Source: Norana najaformis (taxonomy: Eukaryota; Annelida; Clitellata; Crassiclitellata; Hormogastridae). Taken from it: a stretch of 64,000 bases of DNA. Both the position numbers and the translations under genes were made by a program. The stretch spans positions 41,643,924 to 41,707,923 of the forward strand of contig OZ029914.1 in the NCBI GenBank assembly GCA_964023275.1, written 5' to 3'. This document shows, in pieces, positions 10,550 to 64,000 of the stretch; within the stretch, counting starts at the first letter, position 1, and each line of letters opens with the position of its first letter. The notes below the pieces were generated by a model that searched no databases, had not been told where the DNA came from, and saw only the letters and a program-made list of their open reading frames with translations.

Positions 10550-10879
10550 ACAAAAGCCTGTTGGAGATTGACTTTCCACAAAACATAGCTGTTCTTGCCG
10601 GCCAACAGACAACAATTCACTGTCGATCAGAAGCTAACATATGGTGGAAATACAGAGCGAGAGCTGAACATATATGGGACGTAGTTCTCTTTAAAGATGG
10701 CAATTTCTCTGATGATTTTGAACGATTCACTATGGATTCTACTGAACCAAAGCAGTTTGATCAAATCAAACGCAACACACGACTGGCAGATGCAGGAACT
10801 TACGCTTGCGTTGAAACATTCCTAAACACAACAAATCATACAATAACTGCAGCCCACTATTCGGAATTGATTGTTATTG
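10550..10879 (+). CDS. R1: first Ig1 exon (V-like Ig domain)
   Basis: This 330-bp phase 1-1 exon lies between TTCATTTTAG and G|GTAAGC. It has the canonical Ig cysteines (TIHC at residue 25, TYAC at 87), the core Trp pair IWWKY at 32-33, and the DAGTYAC motif of V/I-set F strands. In R2, R4, R5 and R6, and in the disrupted second Ig1 of R1, two extra cysteines occur as DDCxRC at 57 and 60; here both are Phe (DDFERF). EPKRD is replaced by EHIWD. N-glycosylation sequons NFS, NTT and NHT are present. The frame is fully open. A leader exon is missing, so expression is doubtful. Confidence 0.8.
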
Positions 10880-11439
10880 GTAAGCGTTCATTTTGCAACA
10901 TATAAAACCACAGTGTCAAGAATAAAAGTTCTAACCAACACGAGCAAAAGTGGAATAAAATGGCTGTGTTCAAGACTTCTCTCAGTTGTTTAAATTATAC
11001 CTCGCGGAGTGCTTATATTGTTTAAACTGATAGGGCAAGATGAGAAAATTCAAAAGTAAATAATTGTAAAAAAATTCTAATATTCTGAAACGATAAAATT
11101 AACATTTAGATTTTCTTTATTCTTTAACGCCTGTAAGACATCTGATGTGTCCTAGGGTGCGACTCCGCAGAGATTAATTACAGGCAGAGAATGATAGACG
11201 AAGATCAAGAAATTGAAATATCGTTAAATTCTAAACGAAGGTCATATTGATTGCAATTGTCCGCCATAGCGTCTAAACATGAAGGCACCACAAACTTGAG
11301 TGAAGGTTAGCAGATGGCTTTTCTTGAAGTAGCCTTGAATTCATATATAAATTTTACCCAGCAATGGACTATTCAAATGAAAACACGGAAGAAATTATTT
11401 CTTCTCTACTAAATATTGCTCTAAGCATAATCGTAGAAT
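10880..11439 (+). other. R1 intron, unique part
   Basis: Non-coding; related by eye to the start of the Ig1-Ig2 introns of the other copies. Confidence 0.5.
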
Positions 11440-12680
11440 CTGAGCTCATTAAAATACTTAAAGGCTGCCTCCCTATCTATGTCTGAAAAGGCCTGTGCGT
11501 GTGTTCTCTTAGCGAGAATAAAGGATATACTGTTACAACTGAGACGTATTCAACACAGCGGCATAATTTCTGGTAGATCCACTGTTGATCGTATTTTACC
11601 GCTGAATAACCAGATTCAATGAAGGAGGGAGTTACGGCAGCTGTTGTGGATTACCTATGTAGAACTGAATGCGGTTTTTCATTCTGTAGACTGCCCAGCT
11701 ATCTGGAAATTGCTCTTCTTTCATTACTTTCCGGACAAAATTGTGGAATTTATGACAGCTCTACATGAAGACAATATATGCTGTGTATGCTTGCGGTGTG
11801 ACATCAAACTGGTTTAGCGTAGAGAGTGAACAACGATTGGGCTGCAAACTTTCCCAACACTGTTCTTACCGCCGATGGATCAGGTCATGGAACAGACTGT
11901 CGCCTAGGGTCACGCAGGTGCACGCATTGGATTGGACATCTCTGACCAGGACTTTGCCGATGATGTAGCCCTTCTTTCTAAAATTCAGAAGAATCTGGCA
12001 CTGTCCTTGATAGGAGAATTCATCTACCTTTGGTTGAATGTCAAGGTTGATGGCACCAGCGATCCGGAGGTTCGTCTTTTAATAGCATTTGCCAATGACT
12101 GTATAAACAGATTTAATCGGGGAATTTGTGGTACAAATACTTGGCCGGGCAGAAAAATCCGCGTGTTTAGATCTTGCATATCACCTGTGCTCTTTATGGG
12201 CTCTGACCTGGAACGTTGATGGTTGTGGCCATATAAAAGAAGCCTGCCTGCCAGCATACTGCTTGAGGATAGTCAAGCGAAATCCATAATTTGCGCACAA
12301 GACCAATGCACAAATGTCAGGCGCACGTGACACACTCCAGTCTCGAAGTTGATCAGGGCAAGAGGTCTTTGGATGTTTGGACACTTCGCACGGTGGGATG
12401 GCAGGAGGGGGTCACGATAGGGCGCTCAGAGCGTTAATCTCCACAAGAGCAGTGGAAGGGACCAGTCGAACTACCAAGATGACCCCGACGGTGGAGGCCG
12501 ATCTTCACTTACAGGATATGGGGCTAAACACAGCTCAAAGGCAAGCTCAGCCCATGACCGGTACGGTTATCAAACAGTCATAGAAACGGCAATGCTCCGG
12601 AGAGGGGTAATTGATGACGATGATGCCAGCATCATATCAAAACAGCAGCACCTGACCTGTAGAAAGTTAACGCGAGAAGC
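11440..12680 (+). mobile_element. LINE relic with reverse transcriptase motifs (R1 Ig1-Ig2 intron)
   Basis: Degenerate plus-strand frames give RT blocks in the right order: HSGIISGRSTVDRILPLN, then YVELNAVFHSVDCPAIWK (equivalent to the RT ..AFDSV..R.LW block), then DISDQDFADDVALLSKIQ with the catalytic FADD box. A C-terminal segment around 12,370-12,580 reads MFGHFARWDGRRG and then TPTVEADLHLQDMGL. It ends in a GATGACGATGATGCCAGCATCAT tail near 12,615. Stops and frameshifts make it non-functional. The same 3' end sits in the equivalent intron of every copy; this is the longest version. Confidence 0.8.
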
Positions 12681-13023
12681 GAAGAACGCAAAGCTATAAG
12701 GACAATCGTCTAACTTATATTCTAACACTCTGTATAGTACCTTTCAGATTGTCTTCGATTTCTTTGGTGGGGCTAAATGAACAAACAATATGAATGCGAG
12801 TTATCTGTGGATGAGCGACGGTGCAATTCCTTGTAGATTACTTAAAGGCCGTAAAATTATAATAGCATAGTCGAATAGTATTTAATATAAAAAATATTGT
12901 TTATATCTTATGGCTATAAATTTGTACAGCTCCTTTTCCGATCTGTTCAAAGACGCAAGTGACATATTAAAAGAACTGCAATATGTGTCTGAAGCCATAT
13001 ACATTTGCTTTGTTCTGCCACAG

Positions 13024-13389
13024 CGTCTGATCCTGAATGCAGCACAAACTTGACAAATCCGGATAATTCTTTGTGTAAAGACGATTATTTGTTGATACTG
13101 TGCGTTGTTGAGTTCAGAGGTAAATTTTACCCAACGATGGATTGGAGAAACGAAAACACTGGAAAAATTATTTCTTCTCAACTAAATATTACTCCAAACA
13201 GAGACGTCAAATCTGAGCTCATTATAAAAATAAAATGTGAGGATCATGGAGTCACGTTTTCTTGCTCTACGTATTTCAATTCAACAAATGTTGACAACAT
13301 CGTGCACAATTTTTCTAATCACCGTGACGCCGCGAAGAATGTTCCGCTTTACAAAAATACTTGGATTTCTCCAAGAGTAAACATTTCGG
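13024..13389 (+). CDS. R1: first Ig2 exon
   Basis: This 366-bp phase 1-1 exon lies between TTCTGCCACAG and CGG|GTAAGA. It encodes a second Ig-like domain with Cys at residues 6, 18, 27, 72 and 81 and core Trp 41 (MDWRNENTG). The F-strand motif is the atypical HGVTFSC rather than DxGxYxC. The C27-C81 pair with W41 is the likely Ig core. Sequons include NLT, NIT and NST. All six Ig2 exons in the window are exactly 366 bp, which argues for purifying selection on length and frame. Confidence 0.82.
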
Positions 13390-13664: not shown

Positions 13665-13727
13665 ACCAGAACGACTGCATATGCAGAAATATACCTGCAA
13701 ACAGAGTCACTTCATTTCGAACATTTG
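13665..13727 (+). CDS. R1: first stalk microexon (CxC)
   Basis: This 63-bp phase 1-1 exon lies between TTCATTTTAG and TTTG|GTGAGT and encodes DQNDCICRNIPANRV plus six residues. It has the same size, phase, acceptor and donor in six copies. Confidence 0.6.
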
Positions 13728-14693: not shown

Positions 14694-15009
14694 CCAAAAG
14701 CCTCGTGGAGATTGACTTTCCACAAAACATAGCTGTTCTAACCGGCCAAAAGACGACAATTCACTGTCGATCAGAAGCTAACATATGGTGGAAATACAGA
14801 GCGAGAGCTGAACCTAAACGAGATGTTCTTCTCTTTAAAGATGGCAATTTCTCTGATGACTGTGAACGATGCACTATGAATTCTACTGAACCAAATCATA
14901 CGCAACACACGACAGGCAGATGCAGGAACTTACGCTTGCGTTGAAACACTCCTAAACGAAATATATCTCAAAATAACTGCAGAGCACTATTCGGAATTAA
15001 TTGTTATTG
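14694..15009 (+). pseudogene. R1: second Ig1 exon, 14-bp deletion
   Basis: The splice sites are kept (TTATTCTAG acceptor, G|GTAAGC donor), but the exon is 316 bp instead of 330. After NSTEP about 14 bp corresponding to KQFDL are lost and the frame shifts before the second core Cys. Inclusion would truncate the protein. Skipping this exon together with neighbouring phase 1-1 exons would keep the frame. Confidence 0.8.
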
Positions 15010-15584
15010 GTAAGCACTTTTAATCTTTTGATTTTGTGAACAACAGAGTGTTAACAGTGAAAGTTTTACCCAACGGGAGCAAAAGTATAATAAAATAGTT
15101 GTGTGCTCAAACATTGCTCACGGTTCTTTGAATAATACGTTGAGGAGTGCTGATGTTAAAACAGGTGTGAAAAGATGAGGAAAAAAGCAGAAGTCAGTAA
15201 TTGTGCTAAAATTTTAATGTTCTGAAAAGGTAACAAATAATATGCAGAATTTCATTTCTGTCACATCTCAAAAGCACATGACATATGCTAGAGTGCGATT
15301 CCTCCGAGCTTAATCACAGTCAAGCATTTGATAGACCAAGTTGAAGAAAATGAAATATCGTAAAATCTTTAACGAAGGTCGTATTATTTGCCTCCTTCCG
15401 GTATTGCGGCCGAACCTAGTGTAGTACAAAACTGAGTGAATTTTGGAAGACAACTATTTGTTGATGTGTTGCGTCGTTGCGTTCAAATGTAATTTTTATG
15501 CAACAATCGGCTAGAGAAACAAAAACACCGGATAAACTATTTCTTCTCAACTTGCTCTGAAGAAAATCGTAGAACCTGACGATT

Positions 15585-16004: not shown

Positions 16005-16370
16005 AGTCTGGTCCTGAATGCAGCACAAACCTGACTGAATCTGGTGATTCTTTGTGTGAAGACGATTATTTGTTGATTTCTTGCGTCTTTGACTTCAGAG
16101 GTAATTTTTACCCAACGATGGGGTGGAGAAACGAAAACACTGGAAAAATTGTTTCTTCTCAACTAAATATTACTCCAAACAGAGACGTAAAATCTGGGCT
16201 CATTATAAAACTTAAATGTGACGATCATGGAGTCACATTTTCTTGCACTACATATTTCAATTCAGTAAATGTTGACAACATCGTGAACAATTTTCGTCAT
16301 CACCGTGACGCCGCGAAGAATGTTTCGCTCTACAGGAACACTTGGATATCACCAAGAATGAACATTTCAC
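16005..16370 (+). CDS. R1: second Ig2 exon
   Basis: This 366-bp phase 1-1 exon (GCCACAG acceptor, CAC|GTAAGA donor) is open throughout. The Cys pattern is 6, 18, 27, 72 and 81 with Trp 41 in the variant MGWRNENTG, plus HGVTFSC. Other differences are an ESGPEC start and SCVFDFRG in place of RCVVEFRG. It belongs to the disrupted half of R1 but is itself intact. Confidence 0.78.
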
Positions 16371-16652: not shown

Positions 16653-16715
16653 ACCAGAACGACTGTATATGCCGAAATACACTTGCAAACAGCTCTACGG
16701 CAATACGCAGAAATG
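16653..16715 (+). CDS. R1: second stalk microexon (CxC)
   Basis: A 63-bp phase 1-1 exon, DCICRNTLANSS core, with TTCATTTTAG acceptor and AATG|GTGAGT donor. Confidence 0.58.
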
Positions 16716-17509: not shown

Positions 17510-17719
17510 TTTCGTCATCTACAGGAAGTGAAAACACTTTTCTTATGTCATCTACTGATTCTTCACTTGTTGCACTGGTAGTTACCGTAATCGCTGTGTT
17601 GCTTCTATCAGTTGCTATCATCTGCTTCAAAGTGTTAAGGAAGTCAGAGCAAAGGAGATATTTCAAGAATTTCTACTTCTATATTTTTAAAATGAAATTA
17701 TTCATGAGTTTGTACGTAG
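17510..17719 (+). CDS. R1: transmembrane exon with lost GC donor
   Basis: Phase 1 start after ACGTTGTAG; a second in-frame AG lies 15 bp on (TCTACAG). It encodes SSTGSENTFLMSSTDSSL, then the helix VALVVTVIAVLLLSVAIICF, then KVLRKSEQ. The other copies have CAAG|GCAGGT here; R1 has CAAAGGAGAT, so the GC donor is destroyed. The frame stays open to a weaker GTAG|GTATTA donor at 17,720, also phase 1, which would add about 22 residues. End taken at that donor. Confidence 0.6.
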
Positions 17720-18195
17720 GTATTACCAACTACCTTAGACTGGCTGATTTTGTCCAAATGCAGCAAAATAATTTTATTATAACCTCAAATGACTATATAT
17801 TGAGCAGCAATATATATTTTTTCCATGATTATTGTATGCTTCAGTTTTCTTTCTAGGGGTCGTATTAATCCACCATTTGCGTTTAAGCCGTAACAAGCTA
17901 AAACGAAAATATCATTTGACTCATTATCATAGCGCTATTATTGTTTGTCGAAATAATTTCCATTTGACCTGTTTCAACTTCTTTTGAAACTAACCGACGA
18001 TTATTTATAATCATTATAAAAAGATGGTTAGGCAGAATAGCGTAATGAAATCTTTATATGCCAATTATAACTTTTGTTTATCTTTCGATGAAATTAAAAA
18101 AATTAAAGAAGAACTCTGAATTCAATAGATTGAACAAACTTTATTTTATCTGCTCGGGTGTGGCTTAATAGTTTATTTTATTATTAACGTTTCAG

Positions 18196-18522
18196 TAAGA
18201 GATGATAATGTCCAGCAAGAAGAGCCTCTCTCCGTTCATGAAATTGTACGTGCTGATGGCAATATCTTGCCAGGAGCCTCACTGAGTCACAGACAAGCAT
18301 CTGCTGTGGACTACGCAGAACTGAATACACTCGATCGCGATCGAAAAATTTAACACTGAAGGATCAGCTCAGATTTCTATATACGAAAACGCTGGAGCTT
18401 CGGAAATATTAGAGAATAATAGCTTAATGACTTCTGTAGTGCCTGCATCTAGCGCAGAATGCATCGACCATGAGGATTAAAAGCAAGAGAATAATGACTA
18501 TATTAATGTATTTGCTAACTAA
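18196..18522 (+). pseudogene. R1: type II tail exon, frameshifted
   Basis: Starts in phase 1 after ACGTTTCAG with VRDDNVQQEEPLSVHE and keeps one ITIM-like VDYAEL. A deletion of about 14 bp after DRDRK causes a TAA at 18,351. Downstream homology continues to 18,522 with another stop (GAGGATTAA). The ITAM-like second half and the YxN motifs are lost. Confidence 0.8.
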
Positions 18523-20061
18523 TAAGAAATTGCAGGCTTGATGTTAAAGAGTAGGTGTGTAGTCTCGCATTTCAGGGAACTTAATTGAATTCTAATTTGA
18601 AGTTAAAATAAGTCATATTTGTTATATTCCCTTCTTTTTCAAGATGATTCTAACACAAGTTTGCAACAAATATATATTCAAGTGACAACTATTGCCATTA
18701 TAAATGCATCACCCTCAACTCGAATGCGTTCTCGGCATAGATTATAATCGCTTCAAATAGTTCTTAAAAACTGTCTAAATATCGCCTTTGTAATGGGCAT
18801 GTCATTTCTGTAATATGTAGGAGTAATGTGATGTGCAATTAAAAAATGAAATTCAATTAGCGAATTAACTTTCTGATAATTTTAGTATAATTAATTACAG
18901 TACAATTTGTTAAATAAATGTCCCGGAATGATTGATAAATAAAAGGAAGTATATGACAAATTCGCATAAAAGGGTTTCATTATATGAAAGGCAGACAATT
19001 ATCTCACAGTAGGCTATAAAGACATCTAACCTACATGTCATTTTAATTTTTCGTCCCCATTTACACAGAAGTAGAAATAATGGGCGGGCGCTAGCTGCTG
19101 TTAACAAGACGCTGTTAGCAAATACAGTGATGCTGAATACAAAACTTGATTTGTTACTTCTTCGATAACTGACAGTTTATCAAATACCAGATCAACTAAG
19201 TCCTCTGTCTCTCTGGGGTTGGCATATGAGTATCAGCGCAATTTGGGAGATTAAAAGGTGCTGTGACATTGAATTGATGTTGTCGAGTTTGCGCCTCAGC
19301 CAAAAGATCTTTCAATGTTGGGGATAATTATAGGCCTACTTCTCAGGAGTGTCCATAGAATCGTGTCTTCGGTAAGAGGGACCAGGAGCTAGAATTGGGG
19401 AATTCGAAGAACGATTCGGACTGGAGGAGCGATGGGAATCTGAGAAGCTGAGAAGAGCTTAGAGTCGCTTAATCTTCGTTTCGTAAGTGAAGATATATGT
19501 ACTGTATATATATATTGAGTGTGAAATTGTGTAGGTATTCAGAGTATATAAGCCTATATATTTGTGGGTGCTTAGTAAAGAGTATGCTTTTGTCGTATAT
19601 AAATGGTCTCGAGCGTGTGTAAAATTTGATGGAAAGTTCGCCTTAGTCAAAGTGAAGTGCGATATGTATGTATACATATATATATATTTATATGTGGGCC
19701 TATATGACTAGCGGTTACTTTTAGTTGAATCTAAGTCATAATGCGACTAGTCATCCGAAAAAGATATGAAGCTAAAGAAGGGAAATTTGCTCATGAAACG
19801 ATTGGAACGAGACCACACTGAATGTTGAACTATTCTGTAGTTGAGTAGTATTAAAAATAACTAAACACAGTAATGCAAAACTATGGATTGATTTGTGCAG
19901 CTTATCCCCGAGTACGATAGTCAAAGATAATTGAAAATGTTAAAAAGGCTACAGTTAATAAGTGAATGATGAATTTTTCTTCAGCCTAACAGTGCATTCT
20001 ATGCCATGGAAAAGTTTATGAGGAGAGGCTTGATATTGTACTGCGGGTAATTATTCTGTCA
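18523..20061. other. Intergenic: R1 3' region and R2 upstream region
   Basis: AATAAA occurs at about 18,911, like the R5 3' region. A (TA)n-rich patch lies near 19,495-19,690. From about 18,523 to 19,340 it resembles 54,177-54,980. I found no intact MKVF-type alternative leader here. Confidence 0.5.
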
Positions 20062-20115: not shown

Positions 20116-20441
20116 ATGTTTTAATATTTTCTAACGTATTGCAATCAGCTTTAATATGTTCCAATATGTTCTCTTCTACAGTTGTTCATCCGAGAGAAGT
20201 TTAGGGTTAAAGACGGGCGAGCCGTAGATAAGCGTGAATGTACACATCCGCTCTAAGAGTTATGTATAATAAAAGAGACCTAGTTTCCTTTTTAGCTGTC
20301 TGCTTTCACTTGTCTGCATGCATTAAAGTTATCCTTTTTGGTCCATTTTAAGCTGCATCAGATAATACTACTACTATAATCTTAGGAATAACAACTTCAT
20401 TTATTTTGTTGTTCAGTTAAACTTGGATGTGGCATTGTAAT

Positions 20442-20481
20442 GGAGTTACTATTTGTTTGTATGTCGATAGTTGCTTCGGGT
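20442..20481 (+). CDS. R2: leader exon
   Basis: ATG plus 13 codons ending phase 1 at TCGG|GTAAGT: MELLFVCMSIVASG. It is a short hydrophobic signal sequence, 40 bp as in R4, R5 and R6. Confidence 0.65.
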
Positions 20482-23400
20482 AAGTAATAAACATTTGTTC
20501 TTGATGAATTTTTGTACCATTTAGGTTAGCTCAGGGGCTTTTAACTGAGGTATCTAAATGTACTATGTTAAATGTTTTACATAATAAATAAAAATATATT
20601 TGCTAATTTGGCAAGAGTTATAAGTACATAAAATATGCTTTTTGATCTTCCTCACCATTCCAACTTCTGTATACATTATGGCTAAGCGTTGACTTATTCT
20701 CTCGTCGACTGTACATGAGAACATGTAGGCCTATGCATAATTAGTGTATTTGCATCATTTACACAGGAACAGTTTTAAAATATATCCACCAAAATTTTCA
20801 TATTAGATCACAAACACAAATATATCCAAGAACAGTTTTAAAATATATCCACCAAAGCTTTCTATTAGGTCACGTATCAACTTTCTTAGAAAACTTCCAT
20901 TTACAACATTTATTTTAGATGGATGCAAACTTTGTAACAAATTAGGAATAGTTTAATAATAAACCGATATATTACAGCCAAGGTTATAGACTCTTCTTAG
21001 TATAAACTGATTCTTATATTACCTTTATTATTATCTGTATTTTACTAAATTATACAAAAGATCGGTTGTAACAATAACATAATAGTAATAACTTAAGAAC
21101 TTCTATAGCGCCACTGTAATAATGATCGGTTCATCAGTCGATGGTCACTGTGAAGCAAATTCCGTCTATAAGCCAAATTCCAGAATATTATTATTGTTAT
21201 TGTACCAGGCATAAAAGCACTTAAATACCTAGTAACCAAAGCGTCATTATCGCAATTTTGTGATTGTTATAAAGCGCATTATATTGATTCAAAGCATGCA
21301 GATTTGTCAAAATATTGTATAAGAACACGAAGAAATTTATGCATAAAGAAAACCAATTATTTTCTAACCTTATTACCAACTCAAAACCTTAACATGGATC
21401 TCATTTACTTGAACATTTGATGATCTGCAACAAAATGGAGGTCCAGAATTATCCCATTATTACCAAGAGTAGGTTATTTTATTAACAGTAAGATTTAAAT
21501 TCTTCTTTTGATGCTCAATTAGTCGACTATTGCATATAATTGCCGAACTTGCTTAACTCGAGCCTGAACATTCTAGTAGCAGTTTGTCGGCTGCTTGAAT
21601 TGCATAGACTAACTATGTTACATAAGCTTAGTTGGATGTTGACAGAATATAATATAACTAGGGTTTTAAGTGTTTCAGAAGACACATAATGTATGTTAGA
21701 ACCATTGTAAATTACCGTGAATGCTACTGCCTTATTTTTTAAAGGCTGTGATAGTGTCCACTGAGACATTATATCATCCGAACCATTTCACACATCTACA
21801 ACTCTTGCAGAGTATAATTATTTGTCATTTTAGCTATGGTTGATAATTTAAAACAAATGCGAGATTGCACAGTGAGATGAGTTGATCCATTAGAGTATAA
21901 CAGAACGGATGTTGAGATAAAACATTAGTAATGTAACGTATGACTTTTACTGTTACAACTCTATATAGCCTATGCTTCATCTGTCATATCCTTTTCCAAT
22001 AAATCCGCAAAATTAATTTAAACATAAATGCATTAAGATAATTGGCCTGAAGCATTTAAGGCCGATTCCGCCTTTTTATTTGTTGAATGTTTCTGCGTTT
22101 TCTCTTTGATCCTGGCTGTCTGCTGTATCAGTTTTGCGGTTGTCCTTGTATCTCTATTTCTCTCTTCGTTTGTCTATTGTATTTGCTTTTTGTTCTATTT
22201 TAATTCTCAGCATTCAAATCTCCTAGTTGCTAGTTGAATCTACTACAACAATCCACTTCTCATCAGTATCTTGAAATTAAATTTGCAGAAACTATAAATG
22301 TCTCAGAATTCTCTGGCTAGAGTCATAACATAGGCCCCAAATGACCTCATATAACTCCATATTGCGTCATTACATTGAGTGCCTATCGAGCAAAGAATTC
22401 AGTTTAAAACGTGGCTTTCTACAAGGTATTACATTTTGATCATCCGTCCCCAAAATCATTACTCTGCTTCATCTTCAACCCTACTGCCGTGAAACTATTT
22501 AATGTGCATCATGCCAACGTAACTAGAGACACAATTAGATTAGATTAGATCAGATCACACCATCCCAAGAAATTAGAGATTTAATAATTTACTTTACATT
22601 AGAAGTAATAAGATTATATTAGATTAGAACAGATTGTCAAAATTAGAGATTCTATGCTTTTGCAGATGCCTTCCACGAGTGATTCACATTAAACGTATTG
22701 CAATACATAGTTTGTTTAGATCATCTGAATTTAAAAGCATAGCATAAACACAAAACGTCTGCTGTTTATAAAAGTTTACCTATTTCGTTTTAGCCAAATG
22801 TCTTCTGGAGATTGACTTTCCACAAAACATAGCTGTTCTTGCCGGACAACAGACAACAATTCACTGTCGATCAGAAGCTATCATATTGTGGAAATACAAA
22901 GCGAAAGCTGAACTTAAACGAGATGTTGTTCTCTTTAAAGAAGGCAATTTCTCTGATGACTGTGATCGATGCACTATGAATTCTAGTGAACCAAAGCAGT
23001 TTGATTTAATCAAACGTAACACACGACAGGCAGATGCAGGAACTTACTTATGCACTGAAACATTCCTAAACGAGACAAATCTCACAGTGACTGCAAAACA
23101 CTATTCGGAATTGATTGTCATTGGTAAGCCTTTATTTGTGCAATTTTAAGAAAACAACAGTGACCTGAGGAATAAGATTTTTAACCACCACGCATAATTT
23201 TAAATAGAATAAAAATGGCCGTGAATTTGATGGCAACATTAGAAAGTTCTAGAGGAGACTTAGAATGGCAAATTAGAAATTTCTGTGATATTTAAAGCAT
23301 GAAGTAAAACATTCATAAGCTAATCTAATATATGTCTCTATGTTGTGATAATGAAATTAGAACATTTATTTATTCTTCAAATGCACCTTAATATTATAAC

Positions 23401-51700: not shown

Positions 51701-54176
51701 TCGTTGAGTTCAGAGGTAACTTTCACCCAGTGATGGAATGGAGAAACGAAAACACCGGAGAAATTATTTCTTCTCAACTTAATATTATTCCAAACCTAGT
51801 CGTCAAATCTGAGCTCATCATAAAACTTAAATACGAAGATGATGGTGTCACATTTTCTTGCACAACGTATTTCCATTCAACAAAAGTTGTCAACATCGTG
51901 AACAATTTTTGTCATCACCGTGACGCCGCGAAGAATGTTCCGCTCTACAGGAACACTTGGATATCACCAAGAATGAACATTTCACGTAAGATGAAATTTT
52001 TATGACCAAATAATTAAATTTTATTTCTGCATAGTGCATCTGACTCACAGTTTAATTTAAGTGTCTGTATATAATTGTGAAACTTTAAGCTACAATATAG
52101 TTTGACTGTCATTCTTTACACTTATTCTTTTCAGTGGCAAATGACCTATTTGACAATAGTTGCAAAAGCGTTCAACCAATACTTCTTGTTCGTAGCTGAA
52201 AGATATATTGAGTCCAGCAAATGATACCAAGCGCACGTTAAAAATAAACTAAATGAGTAGCACATTCATTTTAGACCAGAACGACCGTATATGCCGAAAT
52301 ACACCTGCAAACAGCTCTACGGCAATACGCAGAAATGGTGAGTCTATCAATGAGCATAAGAAAGTATAATGAAATCCTTACGGAAATATATTGGCCACAG
52401 AGAAATTGGCGTCTGTGAAGTGTAATTTTTGTTATCGTCACTATGATCACTCACCTTCAAAATTCATTTTGTCAGCAGCAACTGTGTTTGTGTTTTCCAA
52501 TCTTACCAGAGTGAAAGAAATGAGTGTACATATAAAATATGAGAAGCGCATTCAATCGTACTTTTAGTTTTGCTTTAGTTTGTTTTAAAAGCCAAGGAAT
52601 TGTCTAGTGTGATCAATCGACACCACATATATGTGTGGCTATTTATGGAGCGCCTTTTGTACCTAAAAAAGACGTCGCAGTCATTTCGTCAGTCAGCCCA
52701 CAGTACGATTGAGTGGCATTATTTCCTATTCTGCAACACGTCTGGCTTAGGATGAAATTATTAAGGATCAAGGCAGCTGTTTATGTAGAATAAGTTAAAT
52801 ATTCTCCTTTGTTCTAGAAGTTATTTCTTTTTCTTTTTCTGCGAATTCTAGTATTTATCCGAAAATCAATCAACCTAGAACCTTAAGCGCTTAATAGATT
52901 ACAGTTTTGCGTATACAGTTTACTTAAGTTCATTAATACTGTTGTGTCACTTACGCCTTTAATGCCCAATAACAAAAGCACATTGTAAATTAAAAATGAC
53001 AAAGACATAGACGTAGTCCTTAGGCGCATCTGTTTGCCTGTGCTCCAGAAAATCGAGACCTCGTGAATGAGTTCTAGATTTGTCAAATTTTTAAGGCGTT
53101 CTTACTGTTTCCATTTGCTCTATAACATTATAGTTTCGTCACCTACAGGAAGTGAAAACACTTTTCTGATGTCCTCTACTGATTCTTCACTTGTTGCACT
53201 GGTAGTTACCGTTGTCGCTGTGTTGCTTCTATCAGTTGCTATCATCTGCTTCAAAGTGTTAAGAAAGTCAGAGCAAGGCAGGTTTTTCAAGAATTTCTAC
53301 TTCTATATTTTTAAAATGAAATTATTCATGAGTTTGTACGTAGGTATTACCAACTACCGTAGATTGGCTGATTTTGTCCAAATGCAGCAAAATAATTTTA
53401 TTTTAACTTCAACTGACTATATATTGAGCAACATTATAATATTTTATAGTTTTTTGCATGATGTTTCCTCCAGTTTTCTTTCTAGGCGTCGTATTAAGCC
53501 ATCATTTGCATGCTCAGCCGTAACAAGCTAAAACGAAAATATCATTTGACTCATTATCATAGCGCTATTATTGTTTGTCGAAATAATTTCGATTTGACTT
53601 GTTTCAACTTCAGTTGAAACTAACCGACGATTATTATTTATAATCGTTATAAATGGATGATTAGGCATAGTGGCGTATGAAACACTGAAACCTTTATGCC
53701 AATTATAACTTTTGTTTATCTTTCGATGCAATTTAAGAAGTTTTAAAGAAGACCTCTGAATTCAACAGATTGACCAAACTTTAATTCATCTGCACGGGCA
53801 TTGCTTAATAGGTTATTTTATTATTAACGTTTCAGTAAGAGATGATAATGTCCAGCAAGAGGAGCCTCTCTCCGTTCATGAAATTGTACGTACTGATGTC
53901 AATGTCTTGCCAGGAGCCTCATTGATTCACAGACAAGCATCCGCTGTAGACTACGCAGAGCTGAATATACTCGATCGCGATCGAGTAAACGTCTACGCAG
54001 CATTTAACACCGAAGGATCAGCTCTGATTTCTACATACGAAAATGCTGGAGCTTCAGAAATATTAGAGAATAATAGCCTAATGACTTCTGTAGTGCCTGC
54101 ATTTAGCGCAGAATGCATCGAACATGAGGATGGAAAGCAAGAAAATAATGACTATATTAATGCATTTGCTAACTAA
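48685..54176 (+). CDS. R5: intact type II Ig receptor gene
   Basis: Exons: leader 48685-48724, Ig1 49216-49542, Ig2 51620-51985, stalk 52275-52337, TM 53134-53277, tail 53836-54176. Joined length is 426 residues with no internal stop. Tail tyrosines: Y353 VDYAEL (ITIM pattern), Y367 NVYAAF, Y381 TYENA and Y420 NDYINA (YxN). Compared with R4 it has one YAEL instead of two and F instead of L after YAA, so the ITAM-like pair is imperfect. It lacks two cysteines present in all other copies (Ig2 residue 72, first stalk Cys). AATAAA at 54,560 and 54,585. Confidence 0.75.
49216..49542 (+). CDS. R5: Ig1 exon
   Basis: 327-bp phase 1-1 exon, one codon shorter than the others (SNHTTATSY for NHSVTAAHY). 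Cys 25 and 87, IWWKY, DDCERC, DAGTYAC. Start reads AKHLLANNFPQNTAVLSG, closest to R4. CRS is preceded by TIL rather than TIH. Confidence 0.85.
49543..50779 (+). other. R5 intron, unique part
   Basis: Non-coding; aligns with R6 59,220-60,430 and R2 23,400-24,430. Confidence 0.5.
50780..51265 (+). mobile_element. LINE 3' relic (R5 Ig1-Ig2 intron)
   Basis: Fragments: LYCPYCMCSFMGCDLE-like near 50,820, VGHFTRCDDRPDHAR near 51,005, KLHLLNFGLHSRRQAHD near 51,115, and a GATGACGATGATGCCAGCATC tail. Dead. Confidence 0.75.
51620..51985 (+). CDS. R5: Ig2 exon
   Basis: 366-bp phase 1-1 exon. Cys 6, 18, 27 and 81 with Trp 41 (MEWRNENTG). Cys 72 is Tyr (KLKYEDDGVTFSC), the only copy in which it is lost. 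YFHSTKV replaces YFNST, losing a sequon. Donor CAC|GTAAGA. Confidence 0.85.
52135..52199 (+). other. R5: possible alternative terminal exon
   Basis: After TTCTTTTCAG, phase 1: VANDLFDNSCKSVQPILLVR, S, stop. Confidence 0.28.
52275..52337 (+). CDS. R5: stalk microexon, first Cys lost
   Basis: 63-bp phase 1-1 exon, QNDRICRNTPANSS core: the first Cys of CxC is Arg. Confidence 0.58.
53134..53343 (+). CDS. R5: transmembrane exon
   Basis: Phase 1 after ACATTATAG. STGSENTFLMSSTDSSL, helix VALVVTVVAVLLLSVAIICF, KVLRKSEQ; GC donor CAAG|GCAGGT ends the short form at 53,277. The frame also stays open to GTAG|GTATTA at 53,343 (phase 1), adding FFKNFYFYIFKMKLFMSLYV. Both ends are in phase with the tail. 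Confidence 0.72.
53836..54176 (+). CDS. R5: type II tail exon
   Basis: Phase 1 after ACGTTTCAG. VRDDNVQQEEPLSVHE, SAVDYAELNILD, NVYAAFNTEG, TYENAGASEI, ECIEHEDG, NDYINAFAN, TAA. 113 residues against 121 in R4. Confidence 0.8.
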
Positions 54177-56266: not shown

Positions 56267-56306
56267 ATGATGTTACTATTTGTTTATATGCCGATAATTG
56301 CGTCGG
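56267..56306 (+). CDS. R6: leader exon
   Basis: MMLLFVYMPIIASG, phase 1 end at TCGG|GTAAGT. Confidence 0.63.
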
Positions 56307-59300
56307 GTAAGTTATAAACATGGTTCTTGATGAATTCTTACACCATTTAAGTTCGCTCAGTGAGCGTTTTAAGTGAGGTACTAAAAGACACTATATTAAG
56401 CGTTTATATAATAAATAAATAAATAAACGATATAGCCCTACTTGCTAAGAGTTATAAGAGTAGGTAAAATATGCCATTCAATTTTCTCACCATTTCAACA
56501 CCTGTATGCATTATGGCTAGGCCTTGCCTAATTCTTCCGGTTTAGTGTATATAAGAACATGTAGGCTTATGCATATCTAGTGTATTTTCAGCATTTTGTA
56601 TGGTATAGTTTTAAAATATATCCACCAATGTTTTCTATCAGATCACGTATCAGCTTTCGTAGAGAACTTACATTTACAACATTTATTTTGAATAGATGCA
56701 GACTTTGTAACAAATTAAGAATACTTTAATAAAAACCAATATATTACATTGATAGTTATAGTCTTGTTTTAGTGTAGACTGATTCATATATTATCTTTAT
56801 TATTTTCTATAATTTACTACATTATACAAAAGATCGGTAACAATAACATAATAATATTAACTTAAGAACTTCTATAGCGCCACTGCAATGATCGTTTCAT
56901 TAGTCGATGGTCACCTGAAGCAAATCCGTGAATATACCAAATTCCAGGATATTATTATTATATATAAAAGCACTTATATACTTAGTAGCCAAAGCGTAAC
57001 TATCGCTATTTTGTGACTGTTATCAAGCTCATTACACTGATTCAAAGCATGAGGATTTGTTAAAATAACGTACAAAGAAACGTTGAAATTTATACCTGTA
57101 GAAAATATATCACCAATTACTTTCTAACCTTATTACCAAAAACTTGAAATATGATCTCATTTACCTGAACAGTTGATGATTTGCAACGTAACAGAAGTTA
57201 AAAATTATTCCCTTATTACCAAGAGTAGGCTATTTTATTAACAGTAAGATTCAAATTCTTCTTCTGATGCTAAATTAGTCGACTATTGCATAAAACTGCT
57301 GAACTTGCTTACCTCACACACAGCCTAGTGACAGTTTGCCTGCTGCCTGAATTGTCTAGAAAAACTACGTTAGATAAGCATAGTTTGTTGTTGACATAAC
57401 ACAGCATAACAAGGGTTTTAAAATGGTTCAGAAGACATATAATGTGCGTTAGGCCCACTGAAGAGTAACCTAGAACGTTTAATAGCAAATCCTTCTTGCT
57501 TTTTTAAAGACTGTTTTAAAGATTGTGATAGTGTCCACTGAGACACTACTATCATACAAAACCATTTCACAAGCATACAACTCTTGCAGAGTATAATTAC
57601 TTGTTATTTTTGCCAGGTTGAAAATTTGAAACCCATGGGATATTGGATAGCGAAAGATTGGATCCGTTAGAGTATAATAGAAAGAAAGATGTCGAGATAA
57701 AATATTAGTAATGCGAAACATAACTTTTAATGCTACAACATAGTCTAAGTTTTATCTGCCATGTTCTTTTTTTTAAACGCAAAATCAATGCAAACACAAA
57801 TGCATTAAAATAACTGGCCTGTAGCAATAAAGGCTAAATACTTCTTTTCATTGTTGAATGTTTCTGGGTTTTTTCTTTCTTTCTGGTAGTCGGCTTTATG
57901 ACTTTGACGGTCTTCCTTTTATCTCTATTTCTCTCTTCTTTTGTCTATTTTATTTACGTTTTGTTCACTTAGTTCTCAGCATTCAAATATCCTAGTTCCA
58001 AGTTGAATCTACTACAACAGTCTAGATCTCAGTAGTATCTCGAAATGAAATTTGCCGAAATTATAAGTGTCTTAGAATTCTCTGGCAAGAGCCATAACAA
58101 AGAACCCAAAAGTCCACATATTACATCCAAATTGCGTCATTTCAATGAGTGCTGATCGGGCAAAGAATTCAGTTTAAAATATGGCTTATTACAAGGAGTT
58201 ACATTTTGATTAGCCGACATCGAAAACATTACTCTGTTCAGTGTTCACCCTAATGCCAAGAAACTAATACTGTGCGTCATGCTAACGTCACTAGAGACGC
58301 AATTAGACAAGATTATATTAGATTAGATTAGATCAGATCAAACCATCCCACAAAATTATAGGTTTAATAATTTCTTTAGTTTAAAAGTAATTAGATCAAA
58401 TTAGATTAGAACAGATTGTCGAAATTAGAGATTTTGTTTTTATTGATGCCTTCCACAAGTGATTCAAGTTAAAAGTACTAAAATATGTATTTTATTTAGA
58501 TCATATGAATCTGAGAGCATACCATAGACACAAAATTTCTGCTAAGTATTTACAAAAGTACACCTATTTAATTTTAGTCAAAAGCCTGTTGGAGATTGAC
58601 TATCCTCAAGAAACAGCTGTTCTTGCCGGCCAACAGACAACAATTCACTGTCGATCAGAAGCTAACATACTGTGGAAATACAGAGCAAGAGCTGAACCTA
58701 AACGGGACGTCGTTCTCTTTAACAATGGCAATTTCTCTGATGACTGTGAACGATGCTCGATGAATTCTACTGAAACAACGCAGTTTGACCTAATCATACG
58801 CAACACACGACTGGCAGATGCAGGAACTTACGCATGCGTTGAAGTGTTTCTAAACACAACAAATCATTCAATAACTGCAACTCACTATTCGGAATTAATT
58901 GTAATTGGTAAGCATTTATTTTCTATCAAAAAAACTACAGTAACGAGAATAAAACTTTTAACCACCACGCGCAATTTTAAATAGTATAAATGGCCGCGTA
59001 TTTGATAGCAACATTAGAAAGTTACCAGATGAGACTTATGCATTCCAAATTATACATTTTTGTAATTGTTAACGCATGAAGTAAAATATTCATAAGCTAG
59101 ATTAATGTATGTGTAGCACTATGATAATAAAAATAGAACATTTATTTATTCTTCAAATTCACCTTTATATTTACTACTGAATAGTAACCCCACACATTTT
59201 ATCAAAACAAATTAAATATACTTGTACTCCATTATGATTTTTCTATTGTAACATATTGTGCTGTAATGTAATGAAATGAACTTATAAAGTGCAGTTATGC

Positions 59301-62300
59301 AGATGGAACAATTTAACACAGCTTTACTAATCAGAAAAACATGCGTAAATCAGCTGCCGTAGCGTGAATAAAGAAAGTCTTCAGCAGATCTTTGAACCAA
59401 CTGAGAGATTTCGCGAATTAAACTTCAGCCATGGATCTCCTTTCAGGCCTTAGACCCCTCATCGATCACCCACATGTGCCCAGATTGCTGATATGTTATA
59501 AAATGCGTTCCGGAGCAAAATTCGTGTTGGCAGCGTACAATTCCGTTGCCAAAACCAAATTTCTCACCGTCTACGTGAAAATCTGTTCCGTGAAAACTAT
59601 TTTCTTGATGTAGACGAATTATTTTTTAACATTAGTTAACGCGCAAATCCTATTTAGGATAAAATGCGATCATGAGGAACAAAGTGGTGATAAACAACAG
59701 CGTCGTATAGTAACGCAATTCTGTTTTTTATAAATGAATTCTATGCATTGGAATAATGTCAAAATATGCCCTAAGAAATGTCGCATACGACATTCTTTGT
59801 TTGCTATTTTCACTAAACACCATGTAGCGATTGAGTAATGTGGAGGCAAATTTATTATTCGTGTTTGTTCAACAAACTCGTGCTGTTGAAAGCAAGTATC
59901 ATAGAGAGGTTTCAAAGCACATATTTGCCGCCTCACGCTAAGGCTGTCAGAAATTGGATCTTGGGCGGAAATTTAATTGATTGCAATGAAATTGCTCAGC
60001 CACGTGCGTTTCTTAACTGTAGGCTAAAAGCAATTTTTATTGGATAGGAAATCTGTTCGGTGATTGTTGTCGTCCGATCTTGTTTAAATTTATAAAATGC
60101 GCAACATTAAAACTGTTTTAAGTGAGTGGTAAAGAATAGCAATAGCAGTTAAAATTTCTAACTGTGAGCAGGTTTTATTCACTAGAAATTCTTTACTTAC
60201 TATATGCACTCACTGATCATTTCCTCTCTTACTTACTGATTAGTTTAATTACTCACTTAAATACTTACTTGCTCACTCATCTGCTTATATGCATACTCAT
60301 GTACCCTATTCACTTGTTGACTGAACAGCCTCATTGCCTAAATACTGATCTACTTATATATATATGGTATATTCTTTCTACTTTATATAGTATAATATAT
60401 GTTTAATCATTATATTTGGCCTCATCATATTTTGAGTCTTGCGCTGAGCGTCATTTTACTGTCTGGGATTGTATGTCACGTTATCCATTTACACAGTTTT
60501 ATGGAATCATAATGTATTTTGCATCTGAAATATTGGACTTAAGATGTTCTTCGACCTGGACTCTGCCGATGATGTAATCCTTATTGCCGAAATTCTGAGG
60601 ACAATGGTCCTGTCTTTGGAAATACTGTTTCCGGAAGTAAACCAGATTGGACCAAGAACAACGGAGCCAAAACCAAGACACAAGCTGCGTAGGAATTATC
60701 TCCGATGTTGAACCACATACAGATTGCAGGAAACATGGTCGAACTGGTAGGAGGATTCACAAACTGGGTCAAACGTAGAGCCTTATGGCAGCAGCGAATC
60801 TGAGGTGCGGCGAATAGCAACTGCCTGTTGCTGTATGAAGAGCCTTAATCGAGTAATCAGAAGTGAAATATTCGGCTGGGCACAAAAATCTGCCTCTTTA
60901 CATCTTACATACTATATGTGATCTTTTATTAGCTGAAACCTAGAACTCACTGTGGCTTTAGAGAAGAAGCTGAATGCCTTCCAACAATTGTGCTTGAAAA
61001 GAATTACGCGAAATCCATATGATTTTCACATCACCAATGCAGAAATACACAGTTGCATGATACAGACACTGGTCTCGGAGTTCATTGAAACAAGATGACT
61101 CCGGATGTTTGGACACTTTGCACGGTGCGATGGCAGGCTGGACCATGCTATGGCCCTCACAGAGTTAATTTTCGGCCCCCGGCCGGGTGGCAGCGACCAG
61201 TAAGACGGAAAAAGACCAGGAGTGTGGAGACGAAGTTCGTCTATTGAACTTTGGGTTACACAGCCGGAGACGAACCCGAGACCAGTACGGTTATCAAAAT
61301 CAAAGAACACGGCAATTCTTCAGAGAGGGGCAAATGATGACGATGATGCCAGCATTATATTTAAGATAGATAGCTAGCGACTAGCCCGTACATAGTTAAC
61401 GCGAGAATTGAAGAACTCAGAGCTTTAAGGACAGATGTCTAAATTATACTCTAAGACTCCGTATAGTGACGTTTAGATGGTCTTTTATTTCTTTGGCGGG
61501 CCAAACAAAGAAGCAATATGCAAGCGAGCTTTCCGCGGATGAGCTATGGTGCTATTCCTTGTAGATTAATTACAGGCCAAAATATTTTAATATTATAGTC
61601 GAATAGTATTTATTAAAGAAACAAAGATATTGTCTATACCCTTAATTGAAGCCAATCTATTTGCTTTACTCCGCCACAGCGTCTGATCCTGAATGCAGCA
61701 CAAACCTGAATAAATCGGAAGATTCTTCTTGTGAAGATGACTATTTGTTGATGCGTTGCGTCGTTGAGTTCAGAGGTAATTTTTACCCAACGATGGAATG
61801 GAGAAACGAAAACACTGGAGAAATTATTTCTTCTCAACTAAATATTACTCCAAACAGAGTCGTCAATTCGGAGCTCATTATAAGACCTAAATGCGACGAT
61901 GATGGAGCCACATTTTCTTGCACTACGTATTTCAATTCATCAGATACTGCCAACATCGTGAACAATTTTTCTCATCAACGCGAGGCAGCGAGAAATGTTC
62001 CGCTCTACAGAAACACTTGGATTTCTCCAAGAATGAACATTTCGGGTAAGAAGAAATTTGTATGAACAAACTAAATGTTATCTCTGCATCATATATCTGA
62101 CTCACAATTTAATTGTCTGTAAATAATTGCACTGACAGCAATGGGAAAGCCTAAATTCCAAAAGGCAAAACTTTCGTACTGTACATGTATAATTTTCATT
62201 GGCAAATGACCCATTTCAGTTAAAATTGAAGAACATATGAATATATTAAATTCAATTAACGATATTAAGTACAAATTAAGATTAAAACTTACTGACTGGC

Positions 62301-63292
62301 ACGTTAATTTTAGACCAGAACAACTGTATATGCAGAAATATACCTGCAAACAGAGTTACTACATTTCGAACAATTGGTGAGTCTAAGAATGAAGATAAGA
62401 AATCATATTACATCCGTATGGAAGTATATTGGCCACAAAGAGTTTGGTTCCTGTTGCGTATGAGTTATTTTTATTATCGTCACCATATTCATTCATCGTT
62501 TAAAATTCCTTTGGCAGCAGCCGCTTTGTTTGAGTTTCTAGTCTTACCAGAAGGTGACAGAAATGAGTGTGCACATATAAAATCAGGACACATATATTCA
62601 AGCATTCTTTTAGTTTTTGCTTTTTTAGTTTAAATGATTAAAACTTAAAACTTTAATGAATCTCCGACTTTATTTTTACTTCTGTTGTTATGTGCTCTAA
62701 ATTCTATGATGCTTACTTCTTGAAAGATATTTAATGCGCTGATTTGGCGATCCGGTTACTCATCTTTCTAACCAGCTGAAGAGGTCTTGACACGTGGCCT
62801 GTTACCTAAAACCTTTAAACTCAACGAGTACAGTGCTGGATATAAGAAAAACAGAAGTCAATATAGTTTGGCTTCTACACTGCCGCTCGAGGAATGCCTG
62901 AATAGGATCTGCTTTGTCCTTCGCACGCTAGTCTATGGTCTGTCATTTGAATTATCAGCTTTACGTCATATGCCTGCACTCTTAGATGAATACTCGCCTG
63001 CTTAATATAAAGACTACGATAAAGAGGGCAAGAATGGTCAAAAGTAGAACTCCACCTAAATAACTATAGCAAAATTCAGAAAACGTTCCTTCGCGATTGC
63101 CGGACCTGTGGCGTGGAACAGTCTTCCCGAGCATGTAAAGTCGTCCCCTTCACTGGATACATTTAAAACACGGCTAAAAACTTTCCTTTTCAGCTTATCT
63201 TTCGACGGCAGAATGCTTCGGTGAATGTACAGCGCCCTTTTTTCGACCTCAGTCGTGCTAAGGCGCATTATAATTATTATTATTACTACTAT

Positions 63293-63348
<56 letters not shown>

Positions 63349-63813
63349 ATTGAAATGATGCAGGACCTGAAAAGTGGCGTGAAAGAAAGGGTGCAGTACA
63401 TAGGAGCAGATATACAAGCAGGCGGAGCAAGAGACTAAATAATCCTGCAGGCACTGATGGTGGCAGAATGAAGCGGTAAGATGCTTTTGATGGGATAATT
63501 TTGTATACACAGTGACGTTGGAGACCGAGAGACGTGAAAAAATCAGAAATAAGCAGTTAGTTTAGTTAATACAGCTGAGCCGAGGAAGAATTGGTATTAA
63601 AAGTGCTGCTGATTTTTCAAATCTTTTAATGGCGAGCTTATTGCTTTCATTTGCTTTCTAACATTGTAGTTTCGTCATCTACAGAAAGTGATAACACTTC
63701 TCTGATGCCCTCTACTGATTCATCACCTGTTACACTGATTGTTACCGTTGTGGTTATGCTGCTTCTATCAGTTGCTATCATTTGCTTCAAGGTGTTAAAG
63801 AAACCAGAACAAG
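56267..63813 (+). CDS. R6: Ig receptor gene, tail beyond the window
   Basis: Exons: leader 56267-56306, Ig1 58578-58907, Ig2 61680-62045, stalk 62314-62376, TM 63670-63813 (GC donor). All are in phase and open. The TM exon (LMPSTDSSP, KVLKKPEQ, FLKDFYFSF) is closest to R2, as are the long first intron and the sequence before the TM exon, so a type I tail is predicted about 1.7 kb beyond the TM exon, outside the window. The promoter carries an inverted duplication, and a LINE fragment lies in the last visible intron. Confidence 0.72.
56307..58577 (+). other. R6 first intron
   Basis: Colinear with the R2 first intron. Holds the inverted GCGCTATAGAAG repeat at 56,870-56,920 and a (GATTA)n tract at 58,310-58,345. 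No exon seen. Confidence 0.55.
58578..58907 (+). CDS. R6: Ig1 exon
   Basis: 330-bp phase 1-1 exon between TTAATTTTAG and G|GTAAGC. Cys 25 and 87, ILWKY (one Trp of the pair replaced, as in R2), DDCERC, DAGTYAC. LEIDYPQETAVLAG and NNGNFSDD are specific to it. Sequons NFS, NST, NTT, NHS. Confidence 0.85.
58908..60429 (+). other. R6 intron, unique part
   Basis: Non-coding; aligns with the same intron in R2 and R5. Confidence 0.5.
60430..61350 (+). mobile_element. LINE 3' relic with RT active-site remnant (R6 Ig1-Ig2 intron)
   Basis: LDSADDVILIAEILRTMVLS near 60,557 is a remnant of the (Y/F)ADD box. Further on are FGHFARCDGRLDHAM near 61,110 and VRLLNFGLHSRRR near 61,230, then a GATGACGATGATGCCAGCAT tail. 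Dead. Confidence 0.75.
61680..62045 (+). CDS. R6: Ig2 exon
   Basis: 366-bp phase 1-1 exon between CTCCGCCACAG and CGG|GTAAGA. Cys 6, 18, 27, 72 and 81, Trp 41 (MEWRNENTG), DGATFSC. HQREAARN replaces HHRDAAKN. Confidence 0.85.
62314..62376 (+). CDS. R6: stalk microexon (CxC)
   Basis: 63-bp phase 1-1 exon, QNNCICRNIPANRV core, TTAATTTTAG acceptor and ATTG|GTGAGT donor. Confidence 0.6.
63075..63348 (+). mobile_element. LINE 3' fragment with (TAC)n tail
   Basis: FAIAGPVAWNSLPEHVKSSP, then LDTFKTRLKTFLFSLSFDG and a stop near 63,223: the conserved C-terminus of CR1/L2-type ORF2. Ends in (TTA)n(TAC)n at about 63,272-63,348. The R2 equivalent (around 27,660) runs straight from the left to the right flank without it, so the insertion happened after R2 and R6 separated. 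Confidence 0.8.
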
Positions 63814-63873
63814 GCAGGTTTCTCAAGGATTTTTACTTCTCTTTTAAAATTAAAATTATTTATGAGATTGTAG
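63670..63873 (+). CDS. R6: transmembrane exon
   Basis: Phase 1 after ACATTGTAG. STESDNTSLMPSTDSSP, helix VTLIVTVVVMLLLSVAIICF, KVLKKPEQ. GC donor CAAG|GCAGGT at 63,814; also open to GTAG|GTATTA at 63,874 in phase 1. Confidence 0.72.
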
Positions 63874-64000
63874 GTATTATCAAACCCATTAGGCTGGCTG
63901 ATTGTGCCCTAGTGCAGCAAAATAATTTTATCTGAACTTTAACGTTTTGCTACCTTGTGGAAATGCTTCACATAATTCGAAAAAAATAAGTAAGTAGTAA

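Follow-up and report, generated by a model that had tools for sequence, protein, structure and literature searches.

We analysed a 64-kb stretch of the genome of the earthworm Norana najaformis (the window, G000:C2:41643924-41707923, on the contig OZ029914.1, here C2). The assembly has 608.4 Mb in 17 contigs, of which C2 makes up 8.5%. The window holds a tandem array that almost certainly belongs to a family of immunoglobulin superfamily (IgSF) receptor genes with signalling tails. By repeat search, tblastn and splice-site reading, we found six exons for a first immunoglobulin (Ig) domain (Ig1), six for a second (Ig2), six linker exons of 63 nucleotides (nt) and six transmembrane (TM) exons in the window, all on the plus strand. 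They make up six Ig-bearing units in a single orientation, U1 to U6, and an orphan TM exon with its tail and without Ig exons, U3b (36652-38414). An intact gene runs from a signal peptide through a V-set Ig1, a divergent Ig2, the 63-nt linker and the TM exon to a tyrosine tail, and between the signal-peptide exon and the first tail exon all boundaries are in phase 1.

The initial annotation of this stretch described six sets of 330-, 366-, 63- and 144-nt exons in one orientation, all in phase 1. The recurrence, strand and phase are as described, but there are not six whole genes, as U1 is without a TM exon and U3b is without Ig exons. With the boundaries read at each copy, the Ig2 exon is 366 nt and the linker 63 nt in 6/6 copies, and the TM exon is 144 nt in the five of six that retain their donor. 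The Ig1 exon has the described 330 nt in four copies but is shorter in U5 (327 nt) and in the damaged U2 (316 nt). The described inventory also had no signal-peptide exon, and our scan for hydropathy and donor sites found a candidate, a short hydrophobic exon of 40 nt with an ATG, before U3, U4, U5 and U6.

Three copies were said to assemble without a stop, and within the window these are U3 (462 amino acids, aa), U4 (435 aa) and U5 (426 aa), assembled by splice sites and open frame. U6 is also stop-free once three tail exons beyond the window end are added. This gives four genes that are intact in sequence (U3, U4, U5 and U6), each predicted to encode one open type I IgSF protein; the TM stretch of these models is a single hydrophobic run as judged by eye. 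U2 is damaged, with a shortened Ig1, a missing TM donor and a frameshifted tail. For U1, tblastn found no TM exon before U2, and the hydropathy and donor scan detected no signal-peptide exon. The receptor array extends past the window at both ends. Coordinates of all features are given in Table 1.

Table 1. Receptor exons in the window, in window coordinates unless another locus is named.
Feature	Position	Strand	Basis or remark
U0 (upstream gene) terminal ITSM-type tail exon	2282..2485	+	remaining exons of U0 precede the window, in L061/L065
U1 Ig1 (V-set) exon	10550..10879	+	splice-site reading
Ig2 exon fragment	11334..11450	+	repeat search, tblastn
U1 Ig2 exon	13024..13389	+	splice-site reading
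U1 63-nt linker exon	13665..13727	+	U1 is an incomplete copy
U2 Ig1 exon, 316 nt vs 330, frameshifted	14694..15009	+	tblastn, splice-site reading
Ig2 exon fragment with stops	15434..15580	+	tblastn
U2 Ig2 exon, mosaic junction near 16260	16005..16370	+	splice-site reading, identity to U5
U2 63-nt linker exon	16653..16715	+	splice-site reading
U2 TM exon, donor of other copies lost	17510..17653	+	splice-site reading
U2 type-1 tail, frameshifted	18195..18527	+	tblastn, splice-site reading
U3 candidate signal-peptide exon (MELLFVCMSIVAS)	20440..20479	+	hydropathy and donor scan
U3 Ig1 exon	22794..23123	+	splice-site reading
U3 Ig2 exon	26250..26615	+	splice-site reading
U3 63-nt linker exon	26913..26975	+	splice-site reading
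U3 TM exon, GC donor	27994..28137	+	splice-site reading
U3 type-2 tail exon e6 (IYYGDP)	29854..30009	+	open frame, alignment with U0, U6
U3 type-2 tail exon e7 (GTYDYI)	30769..30884	+	open frame, alignment
U3 type-2 terminal exon e8 (TIYTEV ... SVYAQM ... PPP, stop)	33137..33310	+	open frame, alignment
U3b orphan TM exon	36652..36795	+	splice-site reading
U3b type-1 tail exon	38050..38414	+	splice-site reading
U4 candidate signal-peptide exon	40558..40597	+	hydropathy and donor scan
U4 Ig1 exon	41081..41410	+	splice-site reading
U4 Ig2 exon	43131..43496	+	splice-site reading
U4 63-nt linker exon	43785..43847	+	splice-site reading
U4 TM exon, GC donor	44642..44785	+	splice-site reading
U4 type-1 tail exon (ITYAEL, NYAEL, VYATL)	46019..46383	+	open frame
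U5 candidate signal-peptide exon	48685..48724	+	hydropathy and donor scan
U5 Ig1 exon	49216..49542	+	splice-site reading
U5 Ig2 exon	51620..51985	+	splice-site reading
U5 63-nt linker exon	52275..52337	+	splice-site reading
U5 TM exon, GC donor	53134..53277	+	splice-site reading
U5 type-1 tail exon (VDYAEL)	53836..54176	+	open frame
U6 candidate signal-peptide exon	56267..56306	+	hydropathy and donor scan
U6 Ig1 exon	58578..58907	+	splice-site reading
U6 Ig2 exon	61680..62045	+	splice-site reading
U6 63-nt linker exon	62314..62376	+	splice-site reading
U6 TM exon	63670..63813	+	splice-site reading
U6 type-2 tail exons, three, past window end	L066 1575-1718, 2495-2610, 4821-5009		splice sites, open frame

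Tails, mosaic copies and coding constraint

The units had been described as ending in tyrosine-motif tails; to these we add a second type, of three exons, in U3 and U6. The type-1 tail is a single exon with YAEL-type motifs, similar to immunoreceptor tyrosine-based inhibitory or activation motifs (ITIM/ITAM-like), and occurs in U3b, U4, U5, the damaged U2 and one locus upstream (L060). Searched against the worm's own genome, it finds 6 matches; these lie at 5 places, all in C2:41.63-41.70 Mb, and no type-1 tail holds a TxYxx[VI] motif. The type-2 tail, in U0, U3 and U6, closes with an end of the immunoreceptor tyrosine-based switch motif (ITSM) type. A query with the first two of its exons found U0, U3 and U6 only (6 matches, expect value E ≤0.1), and by eye there are exons similar to these two ~23 kb past the window, in L062. 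The last exon as a query gave 31 matches (E ≤0.1), all on C2, at 39.4-50.5 Mb. A third tail type, with YEEI, lies in L064 and has 3 matches, all in C2:41.18-41.22 Mb.

We compared 21 terminal type-2 exons, namely that of U3 and those of 20 of the 28 loci outside U0, U3 and U6; eight loci were omitted, two of these with a stop. They follow the order GxDGTxYxx[VLM], SxYAxIDHT and a proline-rich stretch, with not all letters kept in each row. Both tyrosines and the hydrophobic residue at +3 (YxxΦ) are kept in 21/21, down to ~35-38% identity. The first site fits the SLAM-type motif TxYxx[VILT] in 19/21 exons and the second fits an ITIM in 16/21. Across eight tails, which were chosen as tyrosine-rich and some of which are paralogues, we counted 23 YxxΦ motifs versus 8.2 expected, and 0 of 2000 shuffles equalled this number.

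In five of the six TM exons of the window, a GC donor is followed by a GT donor 4 nt downstream (e.g. U4, 44642-44789). We tried the GT donor in three genes and it gave an early stop soon after the TM in all three, so we take the TM exon to use a GC-AG donor; use of the GT donor could yield a tail-less receptor isoform. The U3 linker also reads in frame into the TM exon and type-1 tail of U3b (orphan region 33490-38414, downstream of U3), so alternative splicing of U3 between two signalling tails is possible from the reading frames. Exon e6 has an alternative acceptor slightly upstream (U3 exon start 29839), which is in the same frame in U0 and U3 and in a different frame in U6.

Some copies are mosaic. 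U2 is ~84% identical to U5 as far as halfway through the Ig2 exon, after which the identity is 91-98% through the TM region, and within the U2 Ig2 exon itself the identity to U5 climbs from ~84% to 94%. U3b is 92-100% identical to U4 from ~36527 to 38960, with type-1 tails that are 99.4% identical; the Ig exons of U4 are 83-90% identical to those of other copies. This is the pattern that unequal exchange or gene conversion would leave when placing tails under different ectodomains.

To see how the copies differ, we used the ratio of nonsynonymous to synonymous differences (pN/pS). The set had eight Ig1 and eight Ig2 copies; it excluded the broken U2 Ig1 and the U2 tail, and included the upstream copies c59, c60 and c61, with c59 contributing only Ig1 (10 kb stretch covered). 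Pooled in frame 0, the ratio was 0.52 for Ig1 (confidence interval, CI, 0.39-0.71), 0.43 for Ig2 (CI 0.30-0.61) and 0.39 for TM (CI 0.26-0.62, seven copies, U2 included). The other two frames gave 0.80-1.03 with 46-85 stops in Ig1 and Ig2, and 0.58-1.03, with stops present, across Ig1, Ig2, TM and the type-1 tail. The type-2 exons e6, e7 and e8 are open and aligned in three copies, and random blocks of the region average 0.84 (n=177). The value of 0.67 for the 63-nt linker is uninformative at such an exon length. Because the constraint is in frame, we exclude chance as the source of the repeats, and because the Ig1, Ig2 and TM exons are constrained (0.39-0.52), we read them as genes rather than decaying repeats. 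The comparison of paralogues thus argues against neutral decay of the ectodomains. Together, the gene models, the in-frame constraint and the mosaics bear out the claim in the initial annotation of coding IgSF receptors with alternative signalling tails and broken copies, and show mosaic copies as well.

An alternative is that the array grew by chance and consists mostly of dead or dying duplicates with few working genes. The damage to U1 and U2, the orphan U3b, the Ig2 fragments and a stop in 2 of the 31 terminal-exon matches are what it would look like. We consider this highly improbable, as there are four sequence-intact genes, pN/pS is ~0.4-0.5 in Ig1, Ig2 and TM, and the 21 terminal exons compared all keep both tyrosines, the most diverged among them included.

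The ectodomain had been called polymorphic-looking, a wording that the comparison of paralogues does not support: most of the Ig sequence is under constraint, and pN nears pS just in one short Ig1 patch behind the F-strand cysteine. The patch is codons 87-102 (16 codons, right behind the F-strand motif DAGTYxC), with pN 0.252 and pS 0.242, versus pN 0.098 and pS 0.225 elsewhere in Ig1. Permutation gave P = 0.005 at this width and 0.016 and 0.027 at two other widths, uncorrected for three widths and two domains. In V-set topology, the position directly behind the F-strand cysteine is the FG loop, equivalent to complementarity-determining region 3 (CDR3), and we infer that the variable patch is this loop. 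Positive selection over the whole ectodomain was rejected, since pooled pN/pS is below 1 in each exon class (the linker and signal-peptide exons have too little length to tell).

Family size and domain kinship

Searching the worm's own genome, the Ig1 query gave 58 matches, 50 of them on C2 (counted by eye), and the Ig2 query gave at least 143 on C2 among the best 150 of 434 candidates. These tallies are of exon matches and not of genes, and the Ig2 figure is a lower bound. Among the matches listed, those of Ig2 on C2 form six clusters, the longest of 2.8 Mb, if gaps of ≤600 kb are allowed. The general Pfam model Ig_3 has 8 on C2 among the 150 matches listed (by eye). Seven farther loci (L062-L064, L067-L070) have an Ig2 exon in 7/7, an Ig1-like exon in 6/7 and a further Ig exon in 3/7; several contain what looks by eye like a hydrophobic TM-type exon and a tyrosine-rich tail. 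Judged from the sequences, this is a real, constrained and large receptor family. C2 thus carries IgSF receptors in clusters, with tyrosine tails and with pseudogenes among them, as in complexes of the Alr or FcoR type (discussed below). The likeness to recognition-receptor clusters that was drawn at the outset has gained from the number of Ig2-like matches on one contig and from the shared two-tyrosine tail exon.

Two long open frames lie within receptor loci, at L068 3388-5124 (579 aa) and L063 7095-8582 (496 aa). They are alike by eye, the L068 frame has a weak zf-AD match, and they are possibly copies of a repeated transposon-like gene.

A profile search of both Ig domains had been proposed in the initial annotation. 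It finds Pfam V-set in 11/11 Ig1 members (E ≤0.1), with member 1 above the Pfam cut-off, and weak signals of a divergent Ig in Ig2 (Ig_3 in 10/15 members, C2-set_2 in 4/15), with member 1 below the cut-off. Against the PDB, the best match of the Ig2 profile is CD22 (8.6e-05), with titin and others also matched, and a single Ig2 sequence matched T-cell receptor (TCR) chains alone (E 0.18-0.19). The Ig1 profile has 5567 matches at E ≤1, of which Robo 2 is the best, and the matches listed also include contactin, Dpr/DIP, polymeric Ig receptor, antibody and TCR chains. Because the Ig1 profile hits thousands of Ig chains, it is informative on the fold and not on the family. There was no SLAM chain among the 38 PDB matches of the Ig2 profile, nor among the best 60 of the 5567 for Ig1.

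These matches bear on the alternative that the genes are neural or developmental identity receptors, that is, an adhesion family encoded in clusters that would mark neurons or tissues and whose tyrosine tails would be linked to adhesion signalling. Many invertebrate IgSF families function in neural wiring, the Ig1 profile matches Robo 2 best, with contactin and Dpr/DIP further down, and the ectodomain is mostly conserved between copies. However, the list is unspecific because general Ig profiles match so many chains, and a V-set plus a second Ig with paired ITSM/ITIM-type tails, together with damaged and mosaic copies, is more typical of recognition families. We therefore regard a neural or developmental role as unlikely.

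Probable role in recognition

We put the probability at about 0.65 that these are tandem, lineage-expanded, single-pass IgSF recognition receptors that signal through SH2 proteins, similar to SLAM and Siglec receptors in their working and analogous to Alr and FcoR. Use of the family in immune or self/non-self recognition seems somewhat better than an even bet. The mammalian KIR and LILR genes are likewise tandem Ig receptors with activating and inhibitory versions and fast copy turnover, but their tails and the V-set plus second-Ig layout are unlike and no sequence relation is shown. The vertebrate SLAM family has a V-like and a C2-like Ig domain in its ectodomain, a type I TM and a switch-motif tail, with the motif defined as TxYxxV/I/L/T (PMC11012012; for this and all other papers cited by PMC number, statements cover the part of the text that was available). 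It differs in that the annelid family counts 143 or more Ig2-like exon matches on a single contig and its tail combines one ITSM-type motif with one SxYAxI motif before a proline-rich end, and PDB searches with Ig1 and Ig2 detected no sequence kinship past the Ig fold.

The closest parallels in layout come from invertebrates. The Alr complex of Hydractinia has clustered IgSF genes and pseudogenes with a single-pass TM in one large region (PMC11067881), and candidate Alr genes carry ITIM/ITAM motifs (PMC12065747). Hydractinia is a cnidarian in which Alr1 and Alr2 govern allorecognition and are highly polymorphic; the earthworm set is likened to them in layout and tail motifs. The FcoR proteins of Botryllus are type I receptors that combine V and C2 Ig domains with a tail bearing ITIMs, hemITAMs or the core YxxΦ, and at some loci motifs are swapped through alternative splicing (PMC12065747); in the earthworm, tail swapping is suggested by the genomic layout. 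FcoRs differ in adding a sushi domain and in pairing with fester genes, and our gene models have no sushi exon. Olavius algarvensis, an oligochaete, offers a comparison within the annelids. Its transcriptome table lists 9 (22) V-set and 16 (17) I-set novel proteins among pattern-recognition candidates, and the comparison covers these counts (PMC5117596).

As far as motifs and domains can tell, the most likely mechanism is that a recognition receptor with a V domain signals through SH2 proteins. The V-set domain would bind ligand, with the FG loop at the CDR3 position as its variable part. Ligand binding would cluster the receptors, whose tail tyrosines would be phosphorylated by kinases of the Src type. 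SH2/SH3 proteins, either SHP-like phosphatases or SAP-like adaptors, would then dock on the ITSM-type pair and the proline-rich end. A different output would come from the ITIM/ITAM-like type-1 tail. Both tail cassettes connect to the rest of the gene via phase-1 exons, and duplication, unequal exchange and gene conversion could reshuffle ectodomains against tails, giving a like specificity with a different signal. The likeliest setting would be coelomocytes that recognise microbes or foreign or self cells.

Earthworms are hermaphroditic, and we also considered that the receptors tell self from partner gametes in mating. Multi-allelic gene pairs govern self-sterility in a hermaphroditic ascidian (PMC7018956). 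There is no direct evidence for such a role in the earthworm, and paired-motif SH2-type tails would suggest signalling in a responding cell and not gamete binding alone, so we rate it as very improbable.

Several points weigh against a recognition receptor with ITSM signalling. The evidence comes from the sequence of one genome assembly. The ectodomain is mostly constrained between copies and not hypervariable, and the top window of Ig2, which also lies behind the second cysteine, is not significant (permutation P 0.098-0.165). An AlphaFold2 model of Ig1 from five window sequences had a mean confidence (pLDDT) of 36.5, which is below use, so the CDR3 placement comes solely from the V-set sequence motif. 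The strict ITSM, TxYxx[VI], is found in only 8/21 terminal exons, and strict ITIMs are not enriched in the eight chosen tails (4 versus 1.9 expected, P 0.12). YxxΦ motifs also serve as endocytosis signals. Constraint on the type-1 tail is non-significant, with pN/pS of 0.63 in four copies, and because the CI is 0.39-1.18 this tail alone is compatible with a ratio of 1. The signal-peptide exon, at 0.65 (CI 0.29-1.98), is too small for a selection test.

A larger proposal, which we hold to be a long shot, is that the C2 clusters are the histocompatibility complex of the earthworm. They would be a multi-megabase set of polymorphic V-set receptors that recognise ligands, self or foreign, with the loop at the CDR3 position. 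Whether the response is positive or negative would depend on the exchangeable ITSM and ITIM/ITAM cassettes. The result would be a balance as in natural killer (NK) cells, used for graft rejection and arrived at independently of vertebrates, hydroids and tunicates.

Annelids show graft rejection with short-term memory (PMC2248247). A 2026 review of earthworm coelomocytes covers graft rejection and, for recognition, names Toll-like receptors, LBP/BPI proteins and CCF-1; in a term search, its main text does not contain the word "immunoglobulin" (PMC13295531), and neither does the main text of the Eisenia andrei genome paper (PMC7253469). A review of the invertebrate IgSF has "annelid" once and "earthworm" zero times in its available text (PMC11999971). 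We found no earlier description of an annelid ITIM/Ig receptor family in the literature searched, in which subscription papers were mostly outside scope. The array gives earthworm graft rejection concrete candidate genes and positions, with nearly all of the listed matches on one contig. The receptors are good candidates for the machinery by which earthworms detect foreign tissue or microbes. If this is true, annelids would join hydroids and tunicates as invertebrates that use clustered Ig receptors with ITIM/ITAM-type tails for recognition.

Other features of the region

Rfam gave 0 matches in the window. On the minus strand, overlapping open frames at window 9210-9983 resemble pieces of an element of the long interspersed nuclear element (LINE) type by eye, with no Pfam match at E ≤0.01. 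At window 25339-26109, 5' of the U3 Ig2 exon, there are two 15-nt tandem arrays, GGACAATAACCCCCC and GGGTTATTGTCCGGG, which are roughly complementary. In the genome as a whole, the annelid erythrocruorin-linker domain gave 29 matches. The best of these is nearest to the linker L1 of 2gtl (Lumbricus, 187 bits) and scores lower against the L1 of 4u8u (Glossoscolex, 159 bits), so that on this one gene the worm is closer to Lumbricus. A search for molluscan haemocyanin had no hit, which by itself is no proof of absence. On another contig, a run of many erythrocruorin-linker-like domain matches lies at G000:C5:36.72-36.88 Mb, suggesting a second expanded family.

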